This document shows positions 16,045-27,762 of a stretch of 40,693 bases of DNA, piece after piece. A program made the position numbers and the translations under genes. Source of the DNA: an uncultured Bacteroidia bacterium (GTDB lineage: Bacteria; Bacteroidota; Bacteroidia; Bacteroidales; F082); assembly GCA_902791165.1 (NCBI GenBank), contig CADAVB010000007.1, positions 1 through 40,693 on the forward strand, in the 5' to 3' direction. The notes under the pieces were generated by a model. It worked only from the letters and a program-made list of their open reading frames with translations, searched no databases and had not been told where the DNA came from. Each line of letters begins with the position of its first letter. Position 1 is the stretch's first letter.

Positions 16045-16539
16045 TCACAAAATCTCCCGCGCAATCCAAGCGCAAGCCTCGGCATCGGCCAAGGCGTGAT
16101 GATGGTTGAAAAGAGGAAAGCCACAGGCTTCGGCCACGGTGTGCAGTTGATGGTTGGGCAATCGCTTCCCGAAATGCTTTCGCGAAGCCCGACAAGTACA
16201 ATAAAACTGATAATCAGGGTAATCCATCTGATAGACGCGCATCACGGCTTTCAGGCAACCTTCGTCGAAAGGGCTGTTGTGAGCCACCAGCGGCAAACCC
16301 TCAATCAGCGGCTCAATCTGTTGCCAAACGTAGGGAAACACAGGCGCGTCCTCAGTGTCCTCTTTGGTAATGCCATGCACGAGCGTGTTCCAATACAGAT
16401 AATAATTCGGCTCTGGCTGAATAAGCGAATAGAACGAGTCCACAAACTCGCCTTCGCGAACAATCACCACCCCGACGCTGCACACACTACTGCGCTCGTT
16501 GTTGGCGGTCTCGAAATCTATGGCGGCGAAGGAGTTCAT
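16045..16539 (-). CDS. 3'-5' exonuclease, DnaQ-like DEDDh family
   Basis: This small exonuclease of 164 residues has all the DEDDh motifs: DFET (Asp8, Glu10), HNSPFDEGCLK and HHALADAEA near the end. Such single-domain proteins degrade single-stranded DNA or RNA ends; which one cannot be told. It overlaps the WYL regulator by four bases (ATGA), so it is the downstream partner of that gene and is likely controlled by the same operator-promoter. Confidence 0.9.
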   Translation of the reverse strand: MNSFAAIDFETANNERSSVCSVGVVIVREGEFVDSFYSLIQPEPNYYLYWNTLVHGITKEDTEDAPVFPYVWQQIEPLIEGLPLVAHNSPFDEGCLKAVMRVYQMDYPDYQFYCTCRASRKHFGKRLPNHQLHTVAEACGFPLFNHHHALADAEACAWIAREIL

Positions 16540-17444
16540 TTCTTGTTGTAGTTGTTCCCCATCCGCTTCACCATTCCCGCCATCTCTTCACGCAGCCAAA
16601 GCGGTTCCAGCACTTCAAGCGCGTCGCCATTCCAAAGGAGTTCTTGCTGGAAATCGAAGGTGGGGCGGACATGTAGGGTGAAAATGCTGTAATCGTCGTC
16701 GCGATCGGTTTCCTTTTGGCTTGGGTGCAAAGGCAAGGAACGCAGGTAGTTGGATTGATTGGCACTAACCTTAATCTTCACCGTTTCTATTCCGGTTCCA
16801 TCGCCACGGATGACACCGAAACAGCCCTCAAAATAGACCTCTGGACTGAAATCTTTGGGATAGGGAAAAGGCTCGTCCGTCAGTTGGGCCTCCAAAACGC
16901 GGTCCAGGGAATAGATGCGTATTTTGCCCTCATAAACGCTGTTGCCGACCAAATACCAGCGTTGGCGAAACAGTTTCACACAATATGGTGCCACCCTGAA
17001 AGTGCTTTCGTGTTCTCTCCAATATCCCTTGTAGGTGATTTCCAGCACCTTGCTTTTCTTCATCGCGGCCATCACCGTGTCCAAGAAATCCTGTCCCGAT
17101 GGTATGTTTTCAAGCAAAATGCGGTCGCTGAGCGACTTGTTTTCAAGTAGCGTGTTGCTGACCGACATACTGTTGAGCAGCCAGCGTTGCAGGCTGTCGT
17201 CTTCAAGCGCCTCGCGGTTCTCGATGTAATAGCGGTCGCCGTCGCTCTTGTCGCACATAATGACGAGGCCGAACATCTCTTCCACCGCGTTTTTCCAAGA
17301 GTGGAACGTGCGGCGCGGAATCTCCAGACCCTCGCTCAAATCGGTTTCGAGCCACCGCCGGTTGATTTCCTTCAGGGTGATTTTCTTGGCTTTGTAGAGT
17401 GTTTCGACGAGCCAGACGTATTTGTTTACTTGGTTTTTTGCCAT
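16536..17444 (-). CDS. WYL-domain transcriptional regulator
   Basis: This is a predicted ligand-sensing DNA-binding protein of 302 residues. An N-terminal winged-helix-like region (about 1-75, including RRTFHSWKNAVEEMFG) is followed by the WYL domain (about 130-210: FRVAPYCVKLFRQRWYLVGN...RIYSLDRVLEAQ) and a C-terminal WCX-type extension. The ATG at 17442-17444 is preferred over a GTG seven codons upstream. WYL proteins often control phage-defence or DNA-damage genes, as repressors or activators. A copy of the island's dyad-promoter lies directly upstream, suggesting autoregulation, and six more copies precede the neighbouring operons. It is the best candidate for the regulator that binds them. 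Confidence 0.9.
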   Translation of the reverse strand: MAKNQVNKYVWLVETLYKAKKITLKEINRRWLETDLSEGLEIPRRTFHSWKNAVEEMFGLVIMCDKSDGDRYYIENREALEDDSLQRWLLNSMSVSNTLLENKSLSDRILLENIPSGQDFLDTVMAAMKKSKVLEITYKGYWREHESTFRVAPYCVKLFRQRWYLVGNSVYEGKIRIYSLDRVLEAQLTDEPFPYPKDFSPEVYFEGCFGVIRGDGTGIETVKIKVSANQSNYLRSLPLHPSQKETDRDDDYSIFTLHVRPTFDFQQELLWNGDALEVLEPLWLREEMAGMVKRMGNNYNKK

Positions 17445-17464: not shown

Positions 17465-17504
17465 CAAAAATACGAAAAGATTGTGCCGAATTATTGCACA
17501 GGCA
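17465..17504 (-). promoter_or_regulatory. Dyad-promoter module O1 (WYL gene)
   Basis: The dyad core is TGTGC, a nine-base spacer and GCACA (17482-17500), with a good outer left arm (GCC) but a decayed right arm. Eight bases after the ten-base right-arm block comes TTTG. The -7 box TATTTTTG (complement of 17465-17472) is the best match to consensus of the seven. The left arm also encodes the end and stop codon of the gene at 17491-17931. Confidence 0.75.
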
Positions 17505-17931
17505 AAAAATTTATCCACCAATATCTTCTCCGAATGGAATTGGCATATTGTGTCAGTTCATTCCGAAGTTCGGGTTGCAACGAAGTGTATCGGATGCAGG
17601 CGGCAAGCCAAGCAAGAATGACTTGGCGATAGGCTTCGCCTTTGTATTCGATGAGAGCGGAAGTTTCACTTTGTTGGTCGTTGAGGGTTAAACTAAGCCG
17701 ATTGCGCTTATGCTCAACGGTGATGCTTCTTCCCTGATTGTCAACAATCAGCAAGTCGGAACTTACTTTGGCTGATTCACAATCGAATGGGAATGGCCGT
17801 TTCTGCCGTATCACTTCATTTAGAAAGGCAAACATGAATACACGCCCCATGCCGTGCTCGTCCTCGTGACTGAGCAGACGGGCGATAGTTGCCGTGTTGA
17901 ATGATTTCGATGCCATCGCTTTTTTGTTCAT
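17491..17931 (-). CDS. Hypothetical protein of the WYL island
   Basis: I do not recognise this family. With the ATG at 17931 it is 146 residues (an ATG at 17961 would overlap the previous stop). It is basic at the C-terminus (NSIRRRYWWINF) and contains a possible beta-hairpin core (SDLLIVDNQGRSITVEHKRNRLSL). It has no signal or membrane segment and is likely cytosolic. It follows the gene at 17945-18613 after 13 bases and shares its promoter. Its last codons and stop overlap operator O1 of the WYL gene. Confidence 0.7.
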   Translation of the reverse strand: MNKKAMASKSFNTATIARLLSHEDEHGMGRVFMFAFLNEVIRQKRPFPFDCESAKVSSDLLIVDNQGRSITVEHKRNRLSLTLNDQQSETSALIEYKGEAYRQVILAWLAACIRYTSLQPELRNELTQYANSIRRRYWWINFLPVQ

Positions 17932-17944
17932 AGTCGTTGTATTG

Positions 17945-18613
17945 TTATGAGATTTCAACATTCAGTTCGATATTGAAGTCGCGCACCCAAAGGAGGTCAA
18001 AAATGGCGAATTCCATGTGCTCGAAAAGGTCGTGGAATGCGAATATAAGATGCATGTCTTTTGTCAGTTTTTCGTCTAAACCCTCATTCCAATTGTCCGT
18101 TTCTTCGCTCAAATAGAGCATTTGATGTTCGGATTCTATTGTTGGGACGGGGGAGTGATAGGTGTCAATTCGGAATTGCCCGAATCCGTCACTGTACAAG
18201 GGGATAAAGTCATCGATTGTTCCATTTAGTATGTCCCACATCCGTTTGGCGCGTTCGTCTTGAATGGGATGCGAAGGAGGATAGTCGTAGCCAAGGAAAC
18301 ATTTGCCCTCCACTTCGATAGTTCCTGGCAATTCTGCTTTGACCACCGACTCATAAAGCGCTATAGTGCGTTTGCGCATCTCTATCATCTGTTGCTTCAT
18401 GGCCTCGTTGAAGTCACTGAGCAGTTGCAAATAATAGTCTTCCATCACGAACATTTCGTTCAAGATGGTTTTCCTGATGCTCAAAAGGTTTTGGATGGTT
18501 ACTCTTCCAGTTTCCATGCCCCACATGCCTTTCTCGCTCTGTCGCTGGCAGTCGAGAATCATGTACTCCACCTTCCTGACGGGCTGTGAGTTGTAAATTT
18601 CTTGTATGGTCAT
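17945..18613 (-). CDS. Hypothetical protein of the WYL island
   Basis: A 222-residue soluble protein that I do not recognise. The N-terminal half is helical with a likely coiled coil (about 45-95: LLSIRKTILNEMFVMEDYYL...KQQMIEMRKR). The C-terminal half is acidic and rich in aromatics (FDLLWVRDFNIELNVEIS). It is the first gene after module O2 and is followed closely by another unknown gene, so the two may form a complex; that is inference only. Confidence 0.75.
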   Translation of the reverse strand: MTIQEIYNSQPVRKVEYMILDCQRQSEKGMWGMETGRVTIQNLLSIRKTILNEMFVMEDYYLQLLSDFNEAMKQQMIEMRKRTIALYESVVKAELPGTIEVEGKCFLGYDYPPSHPIQDERAKRMWDILNGTIDDFIPLYSDGFGQFRIDTYHSPVPTIESEHQMLYLSEETDNWNEGLDEKLTKDMHLIFAFHDLFEHMEFAIFDLLWVRDFNIELNVEIS

Positions 18614-18630
18614 AATGCGTTACGATTTAA

Positions 18631-18676
18631 CGCTGCAAAGAAAAAGAAAGCCTGTGCCGAATTGAAGCACAGGCTT
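18631..18676 (-). promoter_or_regulatory. Dyad-promoter module O2
   Basis: A perfect ten-base dyad (AAGCCTGTGC / GCACAGGCTT, 18648-18676, nine-base spacer) is followed by eight bases and TTTGCAGCG. It lies 22 bases after the HAD gene and in front of the gene at 17945-18613. Confidence 0.85.
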
Positions 18677-18698
18677 GACGACAAATGAAAAATTGTTC

Positions 18699-19211
18699 CT
18701 AACGGTTCAAAATGTTTATGGCTTCATAGGCTTTTTGGATGGTTAATCCATCGTTTTCATCGGTCTGAACCAAGTGTTCCTGCTGACTATGGAAGAAGAC
18801 GTTTTCATCGTCGAGAATGACATATTGGAATGGCGGTGATGCACATTTATGCAACCATGCCTGAATCTCGAGCGCTTTAGCATTGCGTTCCGGGACGGAT
18901 AGCATTTCGCCGCTTTTGGCATCTTTGTATGTAGTGCTCAGAAGGATTGGTGTCATTGAAAACAACTCATTAGGAAGGTTGCGGTCTTTCCATAACGCCT
19001 GCATTTTTATCCAACCTTCGTTTCGCCAAGTGGAGGAAAGAACGATTTTACAGCCAGAATGATCAACAATGTATTTAAGATTGCTGATGGTTTTTGGGTC
19101 GAACATGGCACCGAACTCGTCATAATGGTCGATGCCTTCTTTTCTGAGCAGTTTGGCATAATTGGTAGTGTTCAACACGCCATCAAAATCGAGGAAGAGG
19201 TATTTTCCCAT
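18699..19211 (-). CDS. HAD-superfamily phosphatase-like protein (RNA-repair-associated HAD type)
   Basis: A 170-residue HAD protein. Motif I is LFLDFDGVLN (Asp8, Asp10), motif II is in KIVLSSTWRN and motif IV is in YVILDDEN. No cap domain is seen. The text resembles the HAD domains found in bacterial 'Swiss Army Knife' RNA-repair proteins, which are thought to trim phosphates from nucleic-acid ends; this subfamily call is from memory of the motif pattern. It is the last gene of a three-gene unit with the unknown at 19362-19766 and a 58-codon reading frame that overlaps its start. Confidence 0.82.
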   Translation of the reverse strand: MGKYLFLDFDGVLNTTNYAKLLRKEGIDHYDEFGAMFDPKTISNLKYIVDHSGCKIVLSSTWRNEGWIKMQALWKDRNLPNELFSMTPILLSTTYKDAKSGEMLSVPERNAKALEIQAWLHKCASPPFQYVILDDENVFFHSQQEHLVQTDENDGLTIQKAYEAINILNR

Positions 19212-19359
19212 TTAAGTAAGTGTTCAGAATTAAACTACAATATCTTTTGACTTCGGGACTTATCATTTCTTTTACCAAAAAACAATCCCACCAGTTGCGC
19301 ATCCTGTTTTCAGCATAGCGAAACAACACATGCAAAGCTGTCTGTATTTCATGGCACAT
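19183..19359 (-). CDS. Small predicted protein, 58 residues, translationally coupled
   Basis: This frame starts with an ATG two bases after the stop codon of the previous gene (TAA TA ATG) and ends 29 bases inside the HAD gene. It begins MCHEIQTALHVLFRYAENRM and contains NWWDCFLVKEM. The amphipathic, codon-like text and the tight coupling at both ends favour a real gene. It fills an otherwise empty 150-base gap. The family is unknown and the call is tentative. Confidence 0.45.
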   Translation of the reverse strand: MCHEIQTALHVLFRYAENRMRNWWDCFLVKEMISPEVKRYCSLILNTYLNGKIPLPRF

Positions 19360-19361
19360 TA

Positions 19362-19766
19362 TTATGTTAGACTTGTCAATTCCTCATCGGTCAATTCCTT
19401 GTTCGCTATGATTGCGCCTTTGGCATCTATTCCGTAAACGGTATGGTCTTTCAGGCAGACAAAATAGTTTTCATTTGCTTGAATAACCTTACCAACGGTT
19501 TCAACAGACACGGCAGCAACGTGTTCGCCTTTTTCGTCATAGATCAGATACTCGTCTTCGGTGATACCCGCAAAGAATGTTTTGCAAATGATGAATCCTT
19601 TGTAATAATTTTTCTTGACGGAATTGCCGCCAAGCATAAGCGAATAAGGCTCGTTGGTTTCATTGTAGGTGATTGTCGCAAGGGCCATATACAACACTTT
19701 ACGGGGTTCGCCTGGTTTCCTAGAGCCAACTTTCGACATCCTAACTTTTACGTTTTTAATAGTCAT
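19362..19766 (-). CDS. Hypothetical protein of the WYL island
   Basis: A 134-residue protein I do not recognise. It is beta-rich with a repeated pattern of short strands and turns (KGFIICKTFFAGITEDEYLIYDEKG, ENYFVCLKDHTVYGIDAKG), compatible with a small beta-sandwich or propeller-like fold. It has no signal peptide. It is the first gene after module O3 and lies upstream of the small coupled gene and the HAD gene, so the three are probably expressed together. Confidence 0.75.
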   Translation of the reverse strand: MTIKNVKVRMSKVGSRKPGEPRKVLYMALATITYNETNEPYSLMLGGNSVKKNYYKGFIICKTFFAGITEDEYLIYDEKGEHVAAVSVETVGKVIQANENYFVCLKDHTVYGIDAKGAIIANKELTDEELTSLT

Positions 19767-19788
19767 AATTCACTGTTTTTAAGTTTCT

Positions 19789-19834
19789 CGCTGCAAAGAA
19801 AAAGCAAGCCTATGCCGAATTGAAGCACAGGCTT
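19789..19834 (-). promoter_or_regulatory. Dyad-promoter module O3
   Basis: The dyad is 19806-19834; one arm has a single change (GCATAGGCTT) against AAGCCTGTGC. The spacing of eight bases to TTTGCAGCG is kept. It lies 30 bases after the gene at 19864-20673. Confidence 0.82.
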
Positions 19835-19863
19835 GGTGGAAAATAATAATTTGAAAAACTTCG

Positions 19864-20673
19864 TTAAAAGTTGTGGTCGCATTGTTTCAAAAAAGCCGAA
19901 AATGGGCAAGAAACTCGTTCTTGAAATTCCCAATCAGCTACAACATAAGATGGATGATAAGAATTGATTACTACTAAATTCCTTTGTTTATAATACCTTA
20001 AACGACATTGCATGGTTACTTTAGGATGGAAATACTCCTCCTGTTTTTTGTCATCCCAGAAAGGATATCTATTGTCATATTCCCAGTCAGGCGTTCCAAA
20101 ATATTCATTCGTGATGAAATTAAACATAATGCCTTCTCCATCACAACAAACAATGATATTAGGGGAAAGGATGTCTATCTCTTTCTTCAGAAACACTTTA
20201 TCTCTGTTCAACGCTTCTTTCAAAACATTGCCTTCGCAATTCGATCCTCCTGCCAGTTTTTTGGCTTCCAAAAAAGCTAATGGTTTTGTATTCCAAGCCT
20301 CTTTAACTTTGTTCATGTTGGCATTAACCATTCTGTCATTTACCCTATAATCAGCTTTGTTTTCAAGAAGACCAAAGAACAACTTGGCTATCTTCTGATA
20401 AAAGGTTTCAGTCAAGTTGGCAATTTTTCCTTCCTTGTCGAATTTGCTTAATAATTCTCTTGTGTCCCAGCCCCATCCGTCTGGACAATCTTTCAACAAA
20501 AACAATACACGTCTTGGAGCTTTTTCCCACAGTACATCTACATTCAAAGATTCATCTGGTTTAAGCATAAGGCCATCTTTACAGAATCTTTTTTTGTCAT
20601 CTTCATCGTAACTGTTTTTCCATTGCTCAAAGAGCGTGCTTAGTAGTGCGTTGTAATTAATATACTTTTCCAT
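19864..20673 (-). CDS. Possible uracil-DNA-glycosylase-superfamily protein
   Basis: A 269-residue soluble protein. The order of motifs resembles the uracil-DNA glycosylase fold: an early strand with RRVLFLLKDCPDGWGWD, a middle strand NIIVCCDGEGIMF and a late NLVVINSYHPSYV, where HPS matches the family's C-terminal motif. Length and spacing also fit. The catalytic water-activating residue cannot be assigned with certainty, so activity on uracil is not claimed. It follows a 36-residue zinc-ribbon gene by ten bases. If correct, the pair would act on DNA bases or on nucleic acid of a foreign element. Confidence 0.5.
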   Translation of the reverse strand: MEKYINYNALLSTLFEQWKNSYDEDDKKRFCKDGLMLKPDESLNVDVLWEKAPRRVLFLLKDCPDGWGWDTRELLSKFDKEGKIANLTETFYQKIAKLFFGLLENKADYRVNDRMVNANMNKVKEAWNTKPLAFLEAKKLAGGSNCEGNVLKEALNRDKVFLKKEIDILSPNIIVCCDGEGIMFNFITNEYFGTPDWEYDNRYPFWDDKKQEEYFHPKVTMQCRLRYYKQRNLVVINSYHPSYVVADWEFQERVSCPFSAFLKQCDHNF

Positions 20674-20683
20674 TTCTATGATT

Positions 20684-20794
20684 TTAGTTTAGTTTGTTCC
20701 ACTGATGATACCCACCCGAAGGGCAGTCAAATGCATTGGGCGATTTTGAGGCATACAACAGAATGCCACATTTCTTGCATTGGTAATTGTCCAT
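20684..20794 (-). CDS. Tiny zinc-ribbon protein, 36 residues
   Basis: The frame begins MDNYQCKKCG and ends PSGGYHQWNKLN. Cys6, Cys9, Cys24 and His30 form a plausible zinc site. It ends ten bases before the glycosylase-like gene. A -7 box TACCTTTG lies about 60 bases upstream, and module O4 further up. An overlapping longer frame lacks any protein-like pattern. The short size makes proof difficult, but the spacing of the metal ligands and the position argue for a real gene. Confidence 0.6.
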   Translation of the reverse strand: MDNYQCKKCGILLYASKSPNAFDCPSGGYHQWNKLN

Positions 20795-20850
20795 AGGCGG
20801 CCTGCTTGGATTTTGAACTAATAGGCATAACGCCAGTATGATATTTGCAG

Positions 20851-20858
20851 CAAAGGTA
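20851..20858 (-). promoter_or_regulatory. Extra -7 box upstream of the zinc-ribbon gene
   Basis: TACCTTTG followed by CTGC is a full match to TAnnTTTG. It lies between module O4 and the zinc-ribbon gene, so this operon may have two starts. Confidence 0.45.
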
Positions 20859-20918
20859 AACATTTTTCCTAAACAAAACCATTATTGACATATTTTTCAG
20901 ACCGCTTTTGTTTTTCAC

Positions 20919-20963
20919 GCTGCAAAGAAAGCAAAAGCCTGTGCCAAATCGCAGCACAGGCTT
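20919..20963 (-). promoter_or_regulatory. Dyad-promoter module O4
   Basis: A perfect ten-base dyad (20935-20963) with spacer TGCGATTTG, then eight bases and TTTGCAGCGTGAAA. It lies about 20 bases after the WYL/AAA+ relic. Confidence 0.85.
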
Positions 20964-20982
20964 GGATAATCTTTATTTTTTT

Positions 20983-21090
20983 TTATTTGAATCCGATTCT
21001 ATGGCTTTCTTTCGTTTCAAGGCGTTCACCATCGCAATGCGCCATGAGGGTTTCGACGAGCCAGACGTGTTTGATGATTATGTTTTCCAT
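20983..21090 (-). pseudogene. Chimeric relic: WYL gene start fused to AAA+ gene end
   Basis: The 35-codon frame begins MENIIIKHVWLVETL, which matches the WYL regulator's KYVWLVETL; 22 bases around it are nearly identical. It continues LMAHCDGERLETKESHRIGFK and stop, matching the last residues (LMEHCDSERLEQKESRKIGFK) of the AAA+ gene at 25975. The upstream bases resemble the WYL promoter and the downstream bases resemble the region after the AAA+ gene. This looks like a deletion product of a lost second copy. The intact frame and promoter mean that expression of a short peptide is not excluded. Confidence 0.75.
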
Positions 21091-21108
21091 GGGTTTGGTT
21101 TTGTGCGG

Positions 21109-21116
21109 CAAAGATA
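21109..21116 (-). promoter_or_regulatory. -7 box in front of the chimeric relic
   Basis: TATCTTTG fits the consensus and aligns with the WYL gene's own TATTTTTG, followed in both by a related leader ending in ATGG. Confidence 0.5.
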
Positions 21117-21182
21117 GCGACTATGGCTATACACACAACATCACGCACAAATTTTCAGCCTGCAAAATGACCCATTGAACCA

Positions 21183-21710
21183 TTAGTCGTTTTGTCCCAG
21201 CCTGCATTTTACCCTATACTCTCGAAGTTGTTTTTCACGTTGAATAGTGCCATCAAATAAAAACTCAATATAAGTTTCATTAGTGATTTCTAACATAGTA
21301 ATAGTATTTGGATTCACATTTAAATCTGCGATGCCCACTTCATAAGAGTTAATTAGTTCCTTATTTATCATAACCTGCATTGATTCTATAAACACCTGCC
21401 GAATCACACCTATACCTACAATCCCAAAGAATCCCTTCCTCTCTTCTAGAAAAGGAGGAGTTATAAAAAGCACATAATCGCCAACTTCAATCTTGTTGAA
21501 TGTTTCTATGCTTAGGTCTTTCAACTCGTATCTCACAATATCATCGTTGTCTTCATCCCTTCTTATTTTTTCAGTTTGCCAAAGGTAGTCTGCAATGTAT
21601 TCCCATGTCAGTTCTTTCAGACCGAATTCTTTGATTTCTTCATTTTTGCCATCCCATGTTTTGTGTTTAGAAAACCAATAATAGTTTGAGATGAAATACT
21701 TCCTTTTCAT
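21183..21710 (-). CDS. Hypothetical protein, possible PUA/EVE-like fold
   Basis: A 175-residue soluble protein without a firm family. It begins MKRKYFISNYYWFSKHKTW. The stretch KIEVGDYVLFITPPFLEERKGFFGIVGIGVIRQVF has the look of a PUA/EVE-type beta barrel, domains that bind modified bases in DNA or RNA. That resemblance is weak and rests on pattern only. The gene stands alone behind module O5 and is noticeably AT-rich compared with the core genes of the window, consistent with acquired DNA. Confidence 0.7.
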   Translation of the reverse strand: MKRKYFISNYYWFSKHKTWDGKNEEIKEFGLKELTWEYIADYLWQTEKIRRDEDNDDIVRYELKDLSIETFNKIEVGDYVLFITPPFLEERKGFFGIVGIGVIRQVFIESMQVMINKELINSYEVGIADLNVNPNTITMLEITNETYIEFLFDGTIQREKQLREYRVKCRLGQND

Positions 21711-21758
21711 ACGTATTAAGTTTTAGTTTATATTGAAATTTGCATTTTTCGATTTCAC

Positions 21759-21803
21759 GCTGCAAAGAAAACAAAAGCCTGTGCCAAATTGAAGCACAGG
21801 CTT
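21759..21803 (-). promoter_or_regulatory. Dyad-promoter module O5
   Basis: A perfect ten-base dyad (21775-21803) with spacer TTCAATTTG, then eight bases and TTTGCAGCGTGAAA. It lies 27 bases after the phospholipase D-like gene. Confidence 0.85.
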
Positions 21804-21829
21804 GAAACTTTATAGTTTTCTTGAAAAAA

Positions 21830-22342
21830 TCAGGCGATTGGGTCACCGCAAAAGGCTTTCCGTTTACAGGACTTGCAGTGTTTGCCTATCCAGACGGCAT
21901 CGAATTGGTTCATGGCTTGCTCAACCAGTTCGGGATTGTCGGTGAGGATGCCAGCCTCGAAGTTGCGAGTGCCGTCGCCTTTCATGCCGATGCCTGCGCC
22001 GGTGAGGTTAGCGCTGCCGATGTAGGCTACTTGGTTATCAAAGACCAAGATCTTGAAATGTACCCTTGGACAAAGTGCTCTTTCAAGGCCATCAAACAAA
22101 GCAGGGTATTTGTCGAAGTCCTCGCGGAACGCGGGACCTGGCTCCTTGGCGTGGATGAGCCGTACCTCAACGCCTTTTTTGATAAGTTGTGCCAAGACCG
22201 CAAGGAATGGCTTCATTTGTGAGCCGACCTTGACATAAAGGTCTTTGATGTCGGCGGTGCCAATCCAGAGGCTGCGCTTGACATTGGGCACAAGGGCAAG
22301 GACTTCGGTGTAATGGGCTTTGTCAGCGATGAATTTCAACAT
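21830..22342 (-). CDS. Phospholipase D-like protein with a single HKD motif
   Basis: A 170-residue protein of the PLD superfamily. The HKD motif is HFKILVFD (His95, Lys97, Asp102), followed by AYIGSANLTGAG. One motif per chain means that a dimer would form the active site, as in the Nuc-type nucleases; phosphodiester cleavage of nucleic acid or lipid is possible. The last residues hold a cysteine cluster (CKSCKRKAFC) that may bind a metal. It is the last gene of the RavA-like operon, 34 bases after the YgjP-like gene; TATTTTTG in that gap could be a weak internal promoter. Confidence 0.85.
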   Translation of the reverse strand: MLKFIADKAHYTEVLALVPNVKRSLWIGTADIKDLYVKVGSQMKPFLAVLAQLIKKGVEVRLIHAKEPGPAFREDFDKYPALFDGLERALCPRVHFKILVFDNQVAYIGSANLTGAGIGMKGDGTRNFEAGILTDNPELVEQAMNQFDAVWIGKHCKSCKRKAFCGDPIA

Positions 22343-22376
22343 ATTTCTTTCGTTTTATGGTGCAAAAATAATAACC

Positions 22377-23006
22377 TCATTTCATTAAGAACATGTAAAA
22401 GCCCCAGTATTTTGAAAGGGCGATGTCCTGGACGACTTTTTGCTGCTCGGCATCCTCACCGATGAGCTGAGACAAGTATTTCCAAAATGATTTACGGTGA
22501 TGGTGATATTTCAGGTGAGCCATTTCGTGAAGGATGATATCATCCATCATCTCTTTCGGGAAAATGGCAATGATGGGTGAAAGTGTGATGTAATTGGTGT
22601 GGGTGCATAGCCCCAAAACGCCTTTTCGCAAAGGCTTTACACTTACGCCTTTTGCGAATAGTTGATGTTTGGCTTCGAGTTCGTGCATTCGTTGAGGCAA
22701 CACTATAGAGGCGCGAACGATAATCTGTTCCTTTATGCTTTCCCTAAGCCATTTCTGCAATTTCATATTGTGGAAATCAATAGCATCGGAATACAAGATG
22801 TCGGTTTTGGAATGGTCTTCGCTATTAAGAATAATCACGCAAGTGGTTTTTGTGCGGTACACTTTCCTGAAGGGGCTTTCTTTCCTTTGGTCTTGAAATA
22901 GGTCTTGATGGTCGCAAAGGTGCCATTCGATGCTATAGTATGGGAACCGAAGCCTGGCATTGGGGTTTATCCAATAGAGGGGCTGCCTTTTCTTTATGCT
23001 TTCCAT
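22377..23006 (-). CDS. YgjP-like zinc metallopeptidase
   Basis: A 209-residue protein of the YgjP/SprT-like metallopeptidase group. The HExxH motif is HEMAH (160-164), followed by KYHHHRKSFWKYL, where a later histidine before FW gives the third ligand. The preceding CTHTNYITLSP fits the family's strand before the metal site. Related domains act as DNA-protein crosslink proteases or as subunits in restriction-type systems; the substrate here is unknown. Its start overlaps the end of the VWA gene by 13 bases, showing close coupling. Confidence 0.85.
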   Translation of the reverse strand: MESIKKRQPLYWINPNARLRFPYYSIEWHLCDHQDLFQDQRKESPFRKVYRTKTTCVIILNSEDHSKTDILYSDAIDFHNMKLQKWLRESIKEQIIVRASIVLPQRMHELEAKHQLFAKGVSVKPLRKGVLGLCTHTNYITLSPIIAIFPKEMMDDIILHEMAHLKYHHHRKSFWKYLSQLIGEDAEQQKVVQDIALSKYWGFYMFLMK

Positions 23007-24334
23007 ATTCTATCCAGTATTTCGTTGTAAGGGTTTCTGTAACTGCCTATTTGCAGACCGTAAAACCGTGTTCCTTTTTCATGTTCCATGCGCATCTTTT
23101 CGCGAGTGGATGGCCTTGGTAAATTAAACTCAAAATCACTGATGACAAGGACATCGGCCATGGCGTATTTGGCAGTGTAAAGCATCTTCAAGGCCGCATC
23201 AAGCATTTCTTCTCCATCGGTGCCACCTGTGAAATGCTCATCAAGAAAAGCATTAAGCTTTGACCAGGCATTAGGTGTGCTTAAATCCAAGCACTTTGCC
23301 CGGACAGAAAACTCTATCAGGAAACAACGCCGTTTTTGTTTCCTTGCCATCCTCAACAGTTGCATGAGCAGGCACTTGGCCAGCTGTTCGGGGCGGCCAT
23401 GCATGGAACCGCTGGTGTCAACGCTTACGATGATTGGGCCTTTTTCCATTCGGGGCTTGGTGACTTTTTGCTGCTCAATCTTTGTTACACTCTCATTTTT
23501 TGGCTTGTTGGAAAAGAGTTGCAACTTACGGGATGCATATTTAAGACAGAACAGGTCTTCGGTCTGATTATCCGACATGAGGGCTGTTTCGACTGGAAGC
23601 AAGTGTTGCAAATCATTGCCCAATGCCACTTCCTCTATCTCGGTGACAGGCCTGGGTGGTGAGGGCAATATGGGAAGGTAACGTTTGACAGTATCGTCCA
23701 ATTCGTCTTTTCGCTGAGGTTGCTCGCGACCGATGATGCGAACGATTTCGACCAATTGAGGGTTGGAGTAGAAAGCCTTTTCGACTTTTCGACGTTCTTT
23801 GTAGTCGTCGGAACCGTGATTCCAAAGACGAGTTTCCCAGTTGGGCCTGTGAGTTTCAATTACTTCCTGTAACTTCTTTCTATAATTCTCTTCACATGCC
23901 TTATTCCAATCTTTGGCTAATGACGACATGACCAACTCAACGTCTTGGCTCTTTATCTGCTCAAGGTAGCCGTTGACGTTTACCTGGTCAGCGCTATAGT
24001 TGGATAGGATGTGCAGATAGGTCTCTTTCCAATCCTTCCTTTTTTGGGCAAGGTTGCCTTCAGCGAAAAGCCTGATTCGGCGCTTTTCTTGGTGGTATGC
24101 TTGTATGATGGGCTGGTATAGCTTCAGCATTGCTTCCAAGAATTTCATCATCTCATCCTTCAGAATTTCTGCCCAAAGAGGATCCTGGCTGTCCAGTTGA
24201 GGGTTGGCTGCAAAAGTTTGCTTCATGAAGCCAGCCAAGGGATCTTCAGGATGCAGGGTGTCGGGCATTTTGCCCTGGTCCAAATAGAAGTCAAAGGCTT
24301 CGTCGTATTCTTGGAGTTTCTTTTCGATGTCCAT
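22994..24334 (-). CDS. VWA-domain protein, ViaA-like partner of the MoxR ATPase
   Basis: The 446-residue protein has a helical N-terminal half (about 1-290) and a C-terminal VWA domain. The metal-ion site is complete: DTSGS (306-310), Thr372 in TGGTDGEE and Asp400 in VISDFEF. This layout and the text GPIIVSVDTSGSM resemble ViaA, the partner of RavA in enterobacteria. The two proteins are thought to act as a chaperone-like pair. It lies nine bases after the ATPase gene, so the pair is coexpressed. In this island two more enzymes follow in the same operon. Confidence 0.9.
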   Translation of the reverse strand: MDIEKKLQEYDEAFDFYLDQGKMPDTLHPEDPLAGFMKQTFAANPQLDSQDPLWAEILKDEMMKFLEAMLKLYQPIIQAYHQEKRRIRLFAEGNLAQKRKDWKETYLHILSNYSADQVNVNGYLEQIKSQDVELVMSSLAKDWNKACEENYRKKLQEVIETHRPNWETRLWNHGSDDYKERRKVEKAFYSNPQLVEIVRIIGREQPQRKDELDDTVKRYLPILPSPPRPVTEIEEVALGNDLQHLLPVETALMSDNQTEDLFCLKYASRKLQLFSNKPKNESVTKIEQQKVTKPRMEKGPIIVSVDTSGSMHGRPEQLAKCLLMQLLRMARKQKRRCFLIEFSVRAKCLDLSTPNAWSKLNAFLDEHFTGGTDGEEMLDAALKMLYTAKYAMADVLVISDFEFNLPRPSTREKMRMEHEKGTRFYGLQIGSYRNPYNEILDRIWKA

Positions 24335-24342
24335 GGCAAATG

Positions 24343-25887
24343 CTATAAAAGTTGCTGAGCGTTCTTCGCTTTGATTTTCATCTCTTCAAGGCGTTTCTCG
24401 CAAAGGGAGAGTTGTTTTTTGGAGAGTTTTTGATCATCTTCCGAAAGGAAGAGATTGGCCGACTTGTAAAACAAGTCTTTCAGTTTTTCAAACTCAGGCT
24501 GCACTTTGTTTTCCAAGGTCTGCAATGCGACGCCAGCTTCGTTTTCGACGCTGGAAAAAAGCGTTGCATTAGCGCCTTTGACCTTCTCCAATCCGTATGG
24601 TATGCCATCGATAAAGATGCCGCCAGTACATTTCTTCAATTTGACCTTTTTCACATTAGTGTCTGTCTTGGTTTTGTAGGCAAACGGAGCACCCGTATAG
24701 ATGGCCCTGACAATCCAAGCTTTCTTGTCGTTATCCGGATACACAATGCCATCAGTGGTTTTTCCAGTGGTATAATCCTCAACATACTCGTAGTCTGCTT
24801 TATAAAAGAGGCATTTCCCTTGAGGATAGCCTTGTATGATGTAATAGAAGTAGTTGGTCACAGATAAATTGCTTTCCGAAACGCTAGTGGCTCCTGTTTT
24901 CTGTTTGGATTTCTCCTTAAGAGCTTTGTCGATTTCCTTGCTCAACTTTTCAATCTGTTTATCAACATTCACAGTAAGACTGCCGCATACCATGTCAATG
25001 ATTGAGGGAATTGTTTCGGATTTGTTCCAGAGGCCATGCACCAGCAATGGAATGTCGGTCATGTCGATGGTTTTTCTGCCATTCAGGAACGCTGATGTTT
25101 GAAGCAGATGGAAACACTTTTTCCAGCGGCGGTCGGATATGTAATAGTCCATCACGTTGATCTCCTCTTTCTTGGATTGCTCTTTCAGTTCCTTGCGTAT
25201 GTACGACACAGCAGCACATATTTCATCGGGTATCTGAACGGAGTTGATTTCTTTTTGCCAGGAATCATAATGTGTTTCGGTGATTAAAAGGTCACTTGGC
25301 ACTGAGACATCTTGGATGGCCTGATTGCGTATCATCTTGAAGAATTCGGCTTCGCTCTGTATGCAGTTGGACACCATGCGTACCAAGAACCTGTCCCAAA
25401 GGGCTTCAAGGCCTTCCTCTTCGGCGGGCAACTCGTTGCTGGCGGCAATCAAGACTTTCATGGGCAGGCGCAGGGTCTTGTCTCCATTCTGGAAGATGCG
25501 TTCGTTGATGGCGGTAAGCAGTGCGTTTTGGATGGAAGGACTGGCTTTCCAGATCTCATCAAGGAAGACGATATGAGCAGTGGGCAGGAAGCCTTTCACG
25601 ACCCTTTCGTATCGGTCTTCGTTTTTGAGGAGCGAGATAGAGACGGGGCCGAAGATTTCATCTGGTGTGCTGAATCTGGACATCAGGTATTCAAAAGACT
25701 GTCCATCCTTGAACGCTAATTTCAATCTTCGAGCCACAAGACTTTTCGCCGTCCCGGGAGGACCGAGAAGAAAGATACTTTCGCCAGCAACGGCACTTAA
25801 TAACGCCATCGCCAAGATATGCTGCTTTTCATAAACGCCTACTGAAAAATGCTTCAGCAAGGCTGATATTTGTGTCTTTGCATCCAT
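24343..25887 (-). CDS. RavA-like MoxR-family AAA+ ATPase
   Basis: A 514-residue ATPase. Walker A is GPPGTAKS (42-49), Walker B is IVFLDE (106-111) and sensor 1 is in LIAASNELP. The segments ESIFLLGPPGTAKSLVARRL, EYLMSRFSTPDEIFGP and SDRRWKKCFHLLQTSAF are close to RavA. The C-terminal part (about 320-514) is an insertion-like arm as in RavA, here probably coiled at the end. The ATG at 25887 is chosen; the open frame further upstream is only the translated operator. It heads the operon RavA-like, ViaA-like, YgjP-like, PLD-like behind module O6. Confidence 0.92.
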   Translation of the reverse strand: MDAKTQISALLKHFSVGVYEKQHILAMALLSAVAGESIFLLGPPGTAKSLVARRLKLAFKDGQSFEYLMSRFSTPDEIFGPVSISLLKNEDRYERVVKGFLPTAHIVFLDEIWKASPSIQNALLTAINERIFQNGDKTLRLPMKVLIAASNELPAEEEGLEALWDRFLVRMVSNCIQSEAEFFKMIRNQAIQDVSVPSDLLITETHYDSWQKEINSVQIPDEICAAVSYIRKELKEQSKKEEINVMDYYISDRRWKKCFHLLQTSAFLNGRKTIDMTDIPLLVHGLWNKSETIPSIIDMVCGSLTVNVDKQIEKLSKEIDKALKEKSKQKTGATSVSESNLSVTNYFYYIIQGYPQGKCLFYKADYEYVEDYTTGKTTDGIVYPDNDKKAWIVRAIYTGAPFAYKTKTDTNVKKVKLKKCTGGIFIDGIPYGLEKVKGANATLFSSVENEAGVALQTLENKVQPEFEKLKDLFYKSANLFLSEDDQKLSKKQLSLCEKRLEEMKIKAKNAQQLL

Positions 25888-25901
25888 GTTGAATCGTTTT
25901 G

Positions 25902-25947
25902 ATGCTGCAAAGAAAACAAAAGACTGCGCCAAATCACGGCACAGTCT
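25902..25947 (-). promoter_or_regulatory. Dyad-promoter module O6
   Basis: The dyad (25921-25947) is AGACTGTGC / GCGCAGTCT. Relative to the other copies one base has changed in each arm so that AGACTG still pairs with CAGTCT. Eight bases to TTTGCAGC are kept. It lies 27 bases after the AAA+ gene and in front of the RavA-like operon. Confidence 0.82.
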
Positions 25948-25974
25948 CAATAATCTTTACATTGTTCTCCCAAA

Positions 25975-27627
25975 TTATTTAAAGCCAATCTTACGGCTTT
26001 CTTTCTGCTCCAAGCGCTCGCTATCGCAGTGTTCCATGAGCTTCTCCAACGATGCCGCCGAATCGCTGTGCAAGATGCTGTCGATGGCATAGTGTCGCGC
26101 GATGTTCTCAATTTGTCCACCGCTGAAGTCGTACTTCTCGGCCAAGGCACGAATGTCTGACTCTTGCAACTCGGGGAGCATCGAATGCCAAATCTGCATC
26201 CTCGCTTCCAGCGTAGGCTTGTTGAACTTGATTTTGTAAAGGAAACGGCGTTCGAAAGCCTTGTCCATGTTTTGGGCAAGATTGGTGGTGGCGATGAGGA
26301 TGCCGTTGAGGGTTTCCATCTCTTGAAGGATGATGTTCTGGATGGAGTTCTCCATCTTCTCAACGGCGCGCTCTGCACCTTCTTGGCGCTTTCCGATGAT
26401 GGCATCGGCCTCGTTGAAAAGCAAGATGGGGGCGATGGTGGACGTTTCAACCTTCATGCGGTATTGCTCAAAGACTTTCTTGATGTTCTTCTCGCTCTCG
26501 CCCACCCACATGCTCTTGATTTCCGAGATATTGACCTGCATGATGTCGCGCCCCGTTTGACGCGCCAATTGCAAAACGGTTTCGGTCTTGCCGGTGCCTG
26601 GTGCGCCATAGAAAAGGCAGGTGAAGCCGCTGCGGTAGCCTTTGTCCTTTAGGCGACTACACACGTCGTTGTAGTGGCTTTCTTCCAAAAGTTGCCCCAG
26701 ATCGGAAACCTGAGACGCGACGGCCTTATCATAATAGAGTTGTTTCTGCACAATCTCCTCGTGCTTGATGACGTTTTTCCTGTCCTGATTCATCGAAACC
26801 AGATTCAGCTCCGAGAAAAGGGCCTGTTTGGCAGCCCATGTCATACGGAACGACTCCCGATTGACAAAGCCCTCGTCGTTGTTGAATTCAATCATCTTCG
26901 TCTCTTGCAAGATATGCGAATTTTTATTCAGCCGACCCTTGATTAGACTCCATTGCGTTGGGCAGTCGAAGAAGAAGTTCAAGTCATGGTAGCCGATGTT
27001 GTCGTCATTGTTGTTGACAAACAGGTGCGAGAACAAAAGCAGCAGCATCTCGTCCTTCTCATAAAGGTTGAAACTCTTCAGCTTTTGGACAAACAACAAA
27101 TGATTATTGCCGTCCATGAGTTGTTGAAGTCGCATGATGGCCACTTCGGTGCTCAATTCTTTGTCTTTGCGCATTTTCATGATTTCCTCTATCACGTTGA
27201 ACAATTCGGAACAGTTTAGGCCAGAATAGTCGCGGGGCGTGTATTTTTCGTTGCGTTTGAAAGCCTCCACCACTTCCCATGGCACCCGATAACTGATATC
27301 AGACTCATCGCGACGACAGCACACCAAGCCTCTGCGCTCCAGCTCTTCGATGTCCGACATAAGGCGAATCACCCGCGTGGTGCTACATTCCAAATGTCGC
27401 GAGAAGTCGCTATTGCGGATGCTTGTGTCGTTGCTGTTGTCGATAAACAGCGCCATCATCACGCTTTGTTCCTTGGTCATTTCCAGTCTTTCGGAGAGGT
27501 GTTTCAGCGGGTGGGCGGCTTTTTTGAAGAACTCGGCATTGAGGCGCGAGCCTTTTGAGAGTTCGACGACTTGTTCCACAGCGGTCAGCAAATCCAGTTT
27601 TCGGGTCATTCTTTTCTTTGTTTCCAT
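25975..27627 (-). CDS. AAA+ ATPase with winged-helix N-terminal region
   Basis: A 550-residue protein. An N-terminal region (about 1-300) includes a probable winged helix (about 68-115: SIRNSDFSRHLECSTTRVIRL...RRGLVCCRR). The AAA+ module follows: Walker A GAPGTGKT (341-348), Walker B-like ILLFNEAD (401-408) with Asn in place of the usual first acidic residue, sensor 1 IATTN and an arginine-finger type FERRF. It is of the SpoVK/FtsH-like remodelling class. It is first behind module O7 and its end was duplicated in the relic at 20983. The client is unknown. Confidence 0.88.
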   Translation of the reverse strand: METKKRMTRKLDLLTAVEQVVELSKGSRLNAEFFKKAAHPLKHLSERLEMTKEQSVMMALFIDNSNDTSIRNSDFSRHLECSTTRVIRLMSDIEELERRGLVCCRRDESDISYRVPWEVVEAFKRNEKYTPRDYSGLNCSELFNVIEEIMKMRKDKELSTEVAIMRLQQLMDGNNHLLFVQKLKSFNLYEKDEMLLLLFSHLFVNNNDDNIGYHDLNFFFDCPTQWSLIKGRLNKNSHILQETKMIEFNNDEGFVNRESFRMTWAAKQALFSELNLVSMNQDRKNVIKHEEIVQKQLYYDKAVASQVSDLGQLLEESHYNDVCSRLKDKGYRSGFTCLFYGAPGTGKTETVLQLARQTGRDIMQVNISEIKSMWVGESEKNIKKVFEQYRMKVETSTIAPILLFNEADAIIGKRQEGAERAVEKMENSIQNIILQEMETLNGILIATTNLAQNMDKAFERRFLYKIKFNKPTLEARMQIWHSMLPELQESDIRALAEKYDFSGGQIENIARHYAIDSILHSDSAASLEKLMEHCDSERLEQKESRKIGFK

Positions 27628-27657
27628 GATTATCCTTTCTTTAGATATTTGTTTTCA

Positions 27658-27698
27658 CGCTGCAAAGAAAAAGAAAGCCTGTGCCAAATTGCAGCACA
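27658..27698 (-). promoter_or_regulatory. Dyad-promoter module O7
   Basis: The inner dyad TGTGC / GCACA (27680-27698) is kept, but the outer left arm has decayed. The right arm with GGCTT, eight bases and TTTGCAGCGTGAAA are intact. It precedes the AAA+ gene. Confidence 0.78.
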
Positions 27699-27762
27699 AG
27701 ATAATAAAATCTGCAAATTTTATGCTTACCACCATCAACACGCAAAAAAAGCGTATTGTTGT

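Follow-up and report, generated by a model that had tools for sequence, protein, structure and literature searches.

The stretch analysed here, called the window, is the whole of contig CADAVB010000007.1 (40,693 nucleotides), one of the 98 contigs of an uncultured Bacteroidia bacterium (GCA_902791165.1; order Bacteroidales, F082). Between positions 16045 and 28644 all predicted genes lie on the minus strand, as the first-pass annotation of this DNA had said. This island is punctuated by seven copies of a short DNA module, which may serve as a shared operator and promoter: a dyad with arms of 10 bases and a spacer of 9, followed at a fixed distance by a TTTG core (Table 1). One of the genes encodes a regulator with a WYL domain, the putative binder of the dyad.

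A dyad module repeated along the island

All seven dyads are on the minus strand. Exactly 8 bases separate the right-arm block from TTTG in every one of them, which bears out an earlier claim that the gap holds even in the most diverged copy, before the WYL gene, where the arms (TTGCCTGTGC / GCACAATCTT) pair poorly. With at most 3 mismatches the consensus dyad is found in five copies; none of 100 dinucleotide shuffles reached five, the largest shuffle count being 0. A repeat search places six copies in one 70-nucleotide (nt) family and reaches the WYL-proximal copy via a second family, and a sequence profile recovers the same seven copies (E-values from 2e-17 to 2e-5). The seven dyads with a 9-base spacer described in the first-pass annotation are confirmed, five of them by the consensus search and all seven by the repeat search and the profile. 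In the rest of this genome pattern searches added nothing: the 5 and 6 sites obtained are all inside the island. Dyads lying mainly outside such islands, named earlier as the case against the idea, were not seen here.

In terms of RNA folding, the dyad hairpin is the best predicted fold in five of the seven window copies (-17.9 to -20.5 kcal/mol), with T-rich DNA after it. The WYL copy and copy 1 have a different best fold. A terminator scan lists six of the dyads, five of them at its top, with copy 1 given as a 9-pair stem (27678-27700). The dyads had been placed 20-30 bases after most upstream stops. This stands for five of the seven, where the stop lies 19-29 bases before the left arm, but not for copy 1 (59 bases) or the WYL copy, where the stop falls within the dyad. 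There the PD-(D/E)XK-like open reading frame (ORF) ends inside the dyad (window 17491-17505, minus), and among the 135 copies that follow a co-directional gene, 11 have a stop 15 bases into the left half.

Table 1. Module copies and genes of the island, in window positions.
Feature	Position	Strand	Description
Module copy 1	27663..27703	-	dyad 27675-27703, left arm degraded; 8-base gap; TTTG 27666-27663; precedes AAA gene
Module copy 2	25908..25948	-	dyad 25920-25948, arms GAGACTGTGC / GCGCAGTCTT; TTTG 25911-25908; precedes MoxR gene
Module copy 3	21763..21803	-	dyad 21775-21803, perfect arms; TTTG 21766-21763
Module copy 4	20923..20963	-	dyad 20935-20963, perfect arms; TTTG 20926-20923
Module copy 5	19794..19834	-	dyad 19806-19834; TTTG 19797-19794
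Module copy 6	18636..18676	-	dyad 18648-18676, perfect arms; TTTG 18639-18636
Module copy 7	17465..17505	-	diverged dyad 17477-17505; canonical -7 TATTTTTG; TTTG 17468-17465; precedes WYL gene
AAA ATPase, cluster c7, IetA-like in ATPase half	25975..27627	-	Pfam PF00004 8e-25; PADLOC IetA 2.8e-32
MoxR-type AAA ATPase	24343..25887	-	PF20030 bpMoxR 1.6e-52; start from our own gene calls
vWA-domain protein	22994..24334	-	PF05762 5e-5, under its cut-off
YgjP/WLM-like metallopeptidase	22377..23006	-	PF01863 7e-18
PLD-family nuclease-like protein, c8	21830..22342	-	PF13091 4.8e-15
175-residue protein	21183..21710	-	no family found (Pfam, PADLOC, NCBIfam)
Uracil-DNA-glycosylase-like (UDG-like) protein, c18	19864..20673	-	PF03167 0.0025, under cut-off; relative 2.3e-4, likewise under cut-off
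134-residue protein	19362..19766	-	weak PADLOC match alone (BrxP 0.009)
HAD_SAK_2 protein, c24	18699..19211	-	PF18143 8e-26
222-residue protein, c3	17945..18613	-	family not found; frequent cassette gene in relatives
PD-(D/E)XK-like protein, c9	17491..17931	-	PF14281 7e-4, under cut-off; PADLOC PDC-S26 2e-13, partial
WYL+WCX regulator, N-terminal helix-turn-helix-like domain	16536..17444	-	PF13280 1e-14, PF25583 4e-13; proposed binder
DnaQ-like 3'-5' exonuclease	16045..16539	-	PF00929 4e-17; adjoins WYL gene

Spread, orientation and putative promoter core

We fetched 60 stretches from relatives and examined 61 loci altogether, with genes called by our own dicodon script. The loci were picked for holding the module or a WYL relative and therefore are not a random sample. 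The profile rests on 122 distinct seed copies selected by the right half (at most 3 mismatches), so conservation of the right half is partly selected, while the left arm and spacer are unselected. These seeds align without gaps and share a common left arm and spacer (mostly TTCAATTYG). The profile finds 183 copies in 58 of the 61 loci, with L128-L130 lacking the module; 165 are strong (E<1e-4). One module shared by L108 and L109 is counted twice, so the distinct copies number 182 in all, 164 of them strong. The lone copy of L145 matched on both strands of its palindrome and had earlier been scored as running against its array. The module is an element of about 45 bases, nearly identical across dozens of species.

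The first-pass annotation had proposed searching the consensus in this genome and its relatives. A search of the family's 173 genomes for the right half plus TTTGCAGCG, with up to 3 mismatches allowed, picked out 38, which all belong to the genus of the window (1 of 16 genera); the reversed control pattern gave one match. An order-wide search matched 4 of 393 genomes: the own genome, G067 (same genus), G175 (another family) and G536 (3 mismatches), the last probably by chance. G175 (L179, 10447-11785) has the end of a PLD gene, which matches c8 at 89% identity across 55 residues; next come the module and a gene with a P-loop, judged by eye. Of the two order-level matches outside the genus this relic is the one convincing case, and its sequence points to cassette transfer beyond the family. 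Viral contigs searched with the exact right-half pattern gave 0 matches. Those relatives of the WYL gene that come with a name belong to metagenome-assembled genomes of Bacteroidales or Bacteroidia, several from goat, sheep or roe-deer forestomach; RUG names stand for rumen genomes.

The module is locked to one strand within each locus. In loci with at least two strong copies, 150 of 150 copies share a strand (37 loci), and with copies of any strength the count is 165 of 165 (40 loci). In 162 of the 165 strong copies the next gene is co-directional, and its predicted start follows TTTG by a median of 31 bases. Upstream of the strong copies, the neighbouring gene is co-directional in 135 cases, divergent in 25 and absent in 5, with 4 of the 25 depending on small or doubtful ORFs or the tiny cluster c37. 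Of the 47 modules that come first in their locus and have a gene before them, 18 follow a divergent one. After a divergent gene the T-tract is kept and the arms pair at 8.2 of 9 positions with G-T allowed (7.6 strict), against 8.4 (8.1 strict) in 110 copies near a co-directional stop. Downstream of WYL the locus layouts hold a further module in L116 only, a weak copy.

A role as terminator only is unlikely, because a terminator would have no work after a divergent gene and the 25 copies there keep largely intact arms. A secondary terminator role is possible for at least five of the seven window copies, given their hairpin folds and a stop-to-arm distance that peaks at 25-26 nt. The dual role suggested in the first-pass annotation is in this way supported on its promoter side, by the co-directional next genes and the copies after divergent genes, and stays possible on the other.

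As for the promoter core, the -7 element of the host, TAnnTTTG, is found 78 times in 187 upstream regions of non-array genes (7.8 expected from shuffles), and TTnnTTTG 11 times (6.7 expected); the -7 and -33 numbering follows from the consensus. Among 129 cassette modules, the core begins with TT in 111, TA in 8 and CA in 1, and 9 have no TTTG at the spacings tested. Modules directly before WYL have TAnnTTTG in 12 of 12, a canonical core that fits a constant supply of sensor. TTG stands at the host's weak -33-preference offsets in 1 of 128 copies. In the cassette modules a conserved but degraded -7 stands at a fixed distance from a dyad centred near -33, the pattern expected of an activator's targets. 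A scan for sigma-70-type promoters (TTGACA/TATAAT) was set aside as the wrong promoter model for this phylum, and no evidence was drawn from it.

The candidate regulator and the apparently exchangeable cassettes

Across 99 genomes of the genus, among the matches listed, the module and a WYL protein at 70% identity or more occur together in 33 and are both missing from 56 (Fisher p 8.6e-16). The WYL gene is often headed by its own module copy. In WYL clades at 54-60% identity the 9-base spacer is kept, the gap is 8 or 9 and both arms are altered together, with ACAT, AGGTA or AGAT as outer arms. Variant dyads before or upstream of WYL are AACATGTGC/GCACATGTT, AAGGTATGC/GCATACCTT (gap 9) and AAGATGTGC/GCACATCTT. 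Of 12 genomes searched with variant arms, 10 have such a copy upstream of WYL, and the matches of G090 and G091 lie elsewhere. G062 has two cassette-type modules (L177, about 12113 and 12646, minus; arms AAACATCTGC / GCGGATGTTT) with a TT core and the genome's own ACAT outer arms, near a GmrSD-like pair and its own WYL, possibly a parallel array with its own operator.

Changes in the two arms are coordinated 22 times in 64 thinned dyads, compared with a mean of 8.7 and a maximum of 19 over 1000 shuffles. On the protein side, for pairs with a sensor-domain identity of 0.60-0.70, identity of the DNA-binding domain is 0.88 inside the clade of the window (33 pairs) versus 0.63 against other clades (129 pairs); the clade comprises 32 proteins including L122, with diverged arms, ancestry is left in, and the locus pairs here, as in the cassette-break, presence/absence and cassette-versus-WYL comparisons below, are non-independent. 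The predicted recognition helix begins with residues that vary by operator type. The WYL protein probably binds the module, as first proposed from the window; the comparative evidence for this is the co-occurrence, the copies before WYL and the arms that differ together in distant clades.

The WYL and WCX domains were assigned by Pfam, and the N-terminal helix-turn-helix-like domain comes from a moderate fold model matched to DriD. The best solved relatives by sequence are DriD entries (E about 1e-11) and PafBC (8e-4), and the closest solved folds are DriD (3.5e-13), PafBC (5e-10), CapW (2e-7) and BrxR (7e-6). A second array locus (L095, L098, L100, L102, L105) has no WYL in the fetched stretch, with flanks that by eye are DinB polymerase-like and XRE-type regulator-like. 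It suggests one WYL acting in trans on several loci.

Judged from these loci, the island is one of many arrays of apparently exchangeable cassettes, a point missed in the first-pass annotation. We found 61 distinct internal gene strings among the loci. The recognised cassette families include PLD, HAD_SAK_2, UDG-like (below cut-off), PD-(D/E)XK, GmrSD, Nmad2, Nmad3, RhuM-Fic, a UzuA-like protein, FtsZ/tubulin GTPase and IetA-like AAA. By family, many cassette genes look defence- or repair-like, and several common ones have no family. Cluster c11 (14 members; L143 and other loci) is an FtsZ/tubulin-family GTPase (PF00091, 7e-31), an odd cargo beside nucleases. The DnaQ-like exonuclease cluster is present in 35 of the 61 loci.

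Cassette homology breaks at the module on both sides. Where loci share the gene after a module and not the one before, identity drops to background left of the dyad; where they share the gene before and not the one after, it drops to background right of about +30. In 28 cases a cassette is present versus absent between the same neighbours, one of them checked at nucleotide level and the rest at gene level. In the checked case, c24 between c18 and c3 (L091 against L089 and L114), the flanking DNA agrees with presence and absence. Homologous exchange at the modules is what we infer from these breaks.

Some cassettes are more alike than the WYL genes of the same loci. The DNA of c24 is 97.4% identical between the window and L091, whose WYL genes are 80.5% identical, and c3 is 96.9% identical between the window and L090, with WYL genes at 80.3%. 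Over all comparable pairs, the cassette is ahead of WYL by over 5 points of identity in 24 of 42 for c3, 23 of 78 for c8, 13 of 45 for c5, 12 of 76 for c9 and 9 of 34 for c11; the counts are 1 of 3 for c24, 1 of 2 for c18, 1 of 44 for c7 and 0 of 15 for c12. On this ground some cassettes appear to move between species, with slow evolution of c3 as an alternative for its own excess. None of 31 tyrosine recombinase (PF00589) matches in 7 genomes is on an array contig, the contigs being fragmented and serine recombinases not searched.

For the proteins searched from the island and its relatives, 10 at a time, PADLOC and NCBIfam match single genes, several of them partly, and no named system accounting for the whole island was seen among them. 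The c7 AAA ATPase, for example, scores 101 bits for NCBIfam IteA, under the cut-off of 510. Two small ORFs lie between the larger genes. In a fossil ORF of 35 residues (20983-21090, minus) the beginning of a WYL-like gene runs into the final codons of a c7-like AAA gene; the ORF has its own canonical TATCTTTGCCGC, and module copy 4 comes next. Its make-up suggests that a second WYL/AAA pair once stood here and that an internal deletion removed it. A mini-ORF (about 20683-20793, minus) with a CxxC...C pattern, zinc-ribbon-like by eye, precedes the UDG-like gene and has its own TTTACCTTTGC element.

Proposed mechanism and meaning

We propose, with a probability of about 0.65, that the module is an operator-promoter and the WYL protein an activator that would switch on exchangeable cassettes together. 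A WYL dimer would bind the dyad centred near -33, replacing the -33 contact, and would help RNA polymerase start at a poor -7 (TTnCTTTG) a fixed distance away. The cassettes would be induced jointly, the most likely trigger being a nucleic-acid signal, for instance single-stranded DNA (ssDNA) from damage or phage replication. The canonical -7 (TAnnTTTG) of copies directly before WYL would let the sensor be produced without induction. Gene blocks between modules would be swapped as cassettes, each incoming block carrying the same switch. The parts of this reading taken from the sequences are the module, its geometry, the strand locking, the co-occurrence, the coordinated arm differences, the -7 dichotomy and the cassette exchange. 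WYL binding, activation over repression, the ssDNA signal, a function in defence and where the module sits with respect to the start site are our proposals built upon them.

The regulatory sign is probably activation, which the first-pass annotation had missed. A doubtful alternative is a WYL repressor like BrxR and CapW that sits on the dyad, blocks the polymerase and is released by an infection signal. BrxR, a WYL regulator of a defence island, does repress (PMC9122601), the dyad would overlap the polymerase, and the fold matches include CapW and BrxR. However, the host -7 consensus is missing from the 111 TT-type cassette modules and present in all WYL-first ones, the reverse of what strong repressed targets would have. 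R-BOX1 of BrxR lies immediately downstream of its promoter (PMC9122601), whereas the dyad here is upstream of the -7, and the fold scores of DriD and PafBC are above those of CapW and BrxR. We favour activation over BrxR-type repression because of the degraded cassette -7 against the canonical WYL-first -7 and because DriD and PafBC are the closest folds.

The module could also be a joint without any regulator, the hairpin ending one transcript and TTTG starting the next. The five window hairpins with T-rich DNA, the six dyads in the terminator scan and the stop-to-arm peak all speak for it. It is nevertheless very unlikely: arms and T-tract persist after divergent genes, two window copies have no dyad hairpin fold, the spacer is conserved as well, and the arms vary with WYL clade. 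That the module is primarily an integron-like recombination site, with its promoter look secondary, is barely plausible. The homology breaks on both sides, the whole-cassette presence and absence, the apparent movement between species and the uniform orientation would suit it. Against it, the tyrosine-recombinase matches of the 7 genomes are off the array contigs, which are fragments, WYL operons are preceded by a copy, directly or further upstream, in species where no other copy was found there, and the -7 varies by regulatory class.

Several observations weigh against an activator acting through the module. Modules before other genes in WYL-containing runs (n=24) are TA in 13 and TT in 11, the latter lacking the canonical core. 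In 40 of 128 copies a TTG lies 18 bases before the -7, inside the spacer, and might act as a short-spaced -33, and parts of the phylum have a weak -33 element or none that was detected (PMC7366714). The profile was seeded with TT-type copies, so that TA-type cassette copies, each one base off, could be under-counted. Among the matches listed, 5 genomes have the module without a close WYL and 5 a close WYL without the module, and no dyad of this geometry was found near WYL in L149 (WYL 55%) and L152-L157 (47-52%). Sliding the arm pairing gave 3 and 13 coordinated changes as controls, the 13 coming from a slide by 2, and part of the co-variation comes from shared ancestry. The WYL protein has a moderate fold model (predicted local distance difference test, pLDDT, 68.9; predicted template modelling score, pTM, 0.51), with TM-scores of about 0.3. 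Of the arginine pair that binds ssDNA (RxxR in PafBC, kept in DriD), the second is kept and the first is Ser or Ala in 17 of 17 aligned proteins listed, so the ligand may differ.

Among known regulators, the activator DriD of Caulobacter is the closest solved sequence and fold. Its half-sites lie on either side of the -35, and their distance to the poor -10 elements is constant (PMC12340889). The module is likewise an inverted repeat at a fixed distance from a poor core; the DriD site overlaps the -35 (PMC12340889), and here a position near -33 is predicted from the consensus. Unlike the DriD site, ATACGAC-N7-GTCGTAT, the arms here are 9-10 bases and the spacer 9, the targets are clustered exchangeable cassettes, and Ser or Ala takes the place of the first Arg of RxxR. 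Reportedly DriD does not control its own promoter, whereas WYL here is often headed by the module. PafBC and SiwR of mycobacteria are WYL activators responsive to ssDNA or genotoxic stress (PMC11804915, PMC10693628), the type proposed here. PafBC differs in being a heterodimer that reads a -26 motif, and SiwR in controlling adjacent DinB/YfiT-like genes, not arrays of interchangeable cassettes (PMC10693628).

BrxR resembles the proposed binder as a defence-linked WYL regulator with inverted-repeat operators, but it is a repressor, with R-BOX1 downstream of the promoter and two R-BOXes in the plasmid studied (PMC9122601). Both BrxR and CapW match the window WYL fold less well than DriD and PafBC. 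An operator of their type, downstream of a good promoter or blocking it, is not what we found: the dyad is upstream of a -7 that is non-consensus in 111 of 129. CapW, for its part, is reportedly a WYL regulator linked to defence systems (PMC9122588).

Like integrons, the arrays consist of cassettes that point one way, vary in order and seem to pass from species to species. They differ by the absence of a tyrosine recombinase on the array contigs tested, and each cassette carries a promoter-like module, whereas integron cassettes are mostly promoterless. A tentative extension, which we hold at somewhat below even odds, is that the module is both a shared WYL-dependent promoter and the homology for block recombination. 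The array would then be an integron-like platform without an integrase, placing acquired immune or repair blocks under nucleic-acid-sensing control.

In the literature searched, judged by titles and abstract openings and mostly outside subscription journals, we found no such arrays. The parts of the machinery are of known kinds; the arrangement, a regulon of cassettes each with the same switch, was not found there.

Lastly, in terms of meaning, defence genes cluster in islands, and how newcomers come under common control is an open question. In these arrays each block brings its control element along, which lets the regulon grow as cassettes are shuffled. The two types of -7 predict activator-dependent cassettes and a constitutive sensor, and the family-less genes behind modules (c3, c5, c10, c12, c36) are candidates for defence or repair functions. 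If true, this would give gut Bacteroidales a novel route to building up a co-regulated arsenal.

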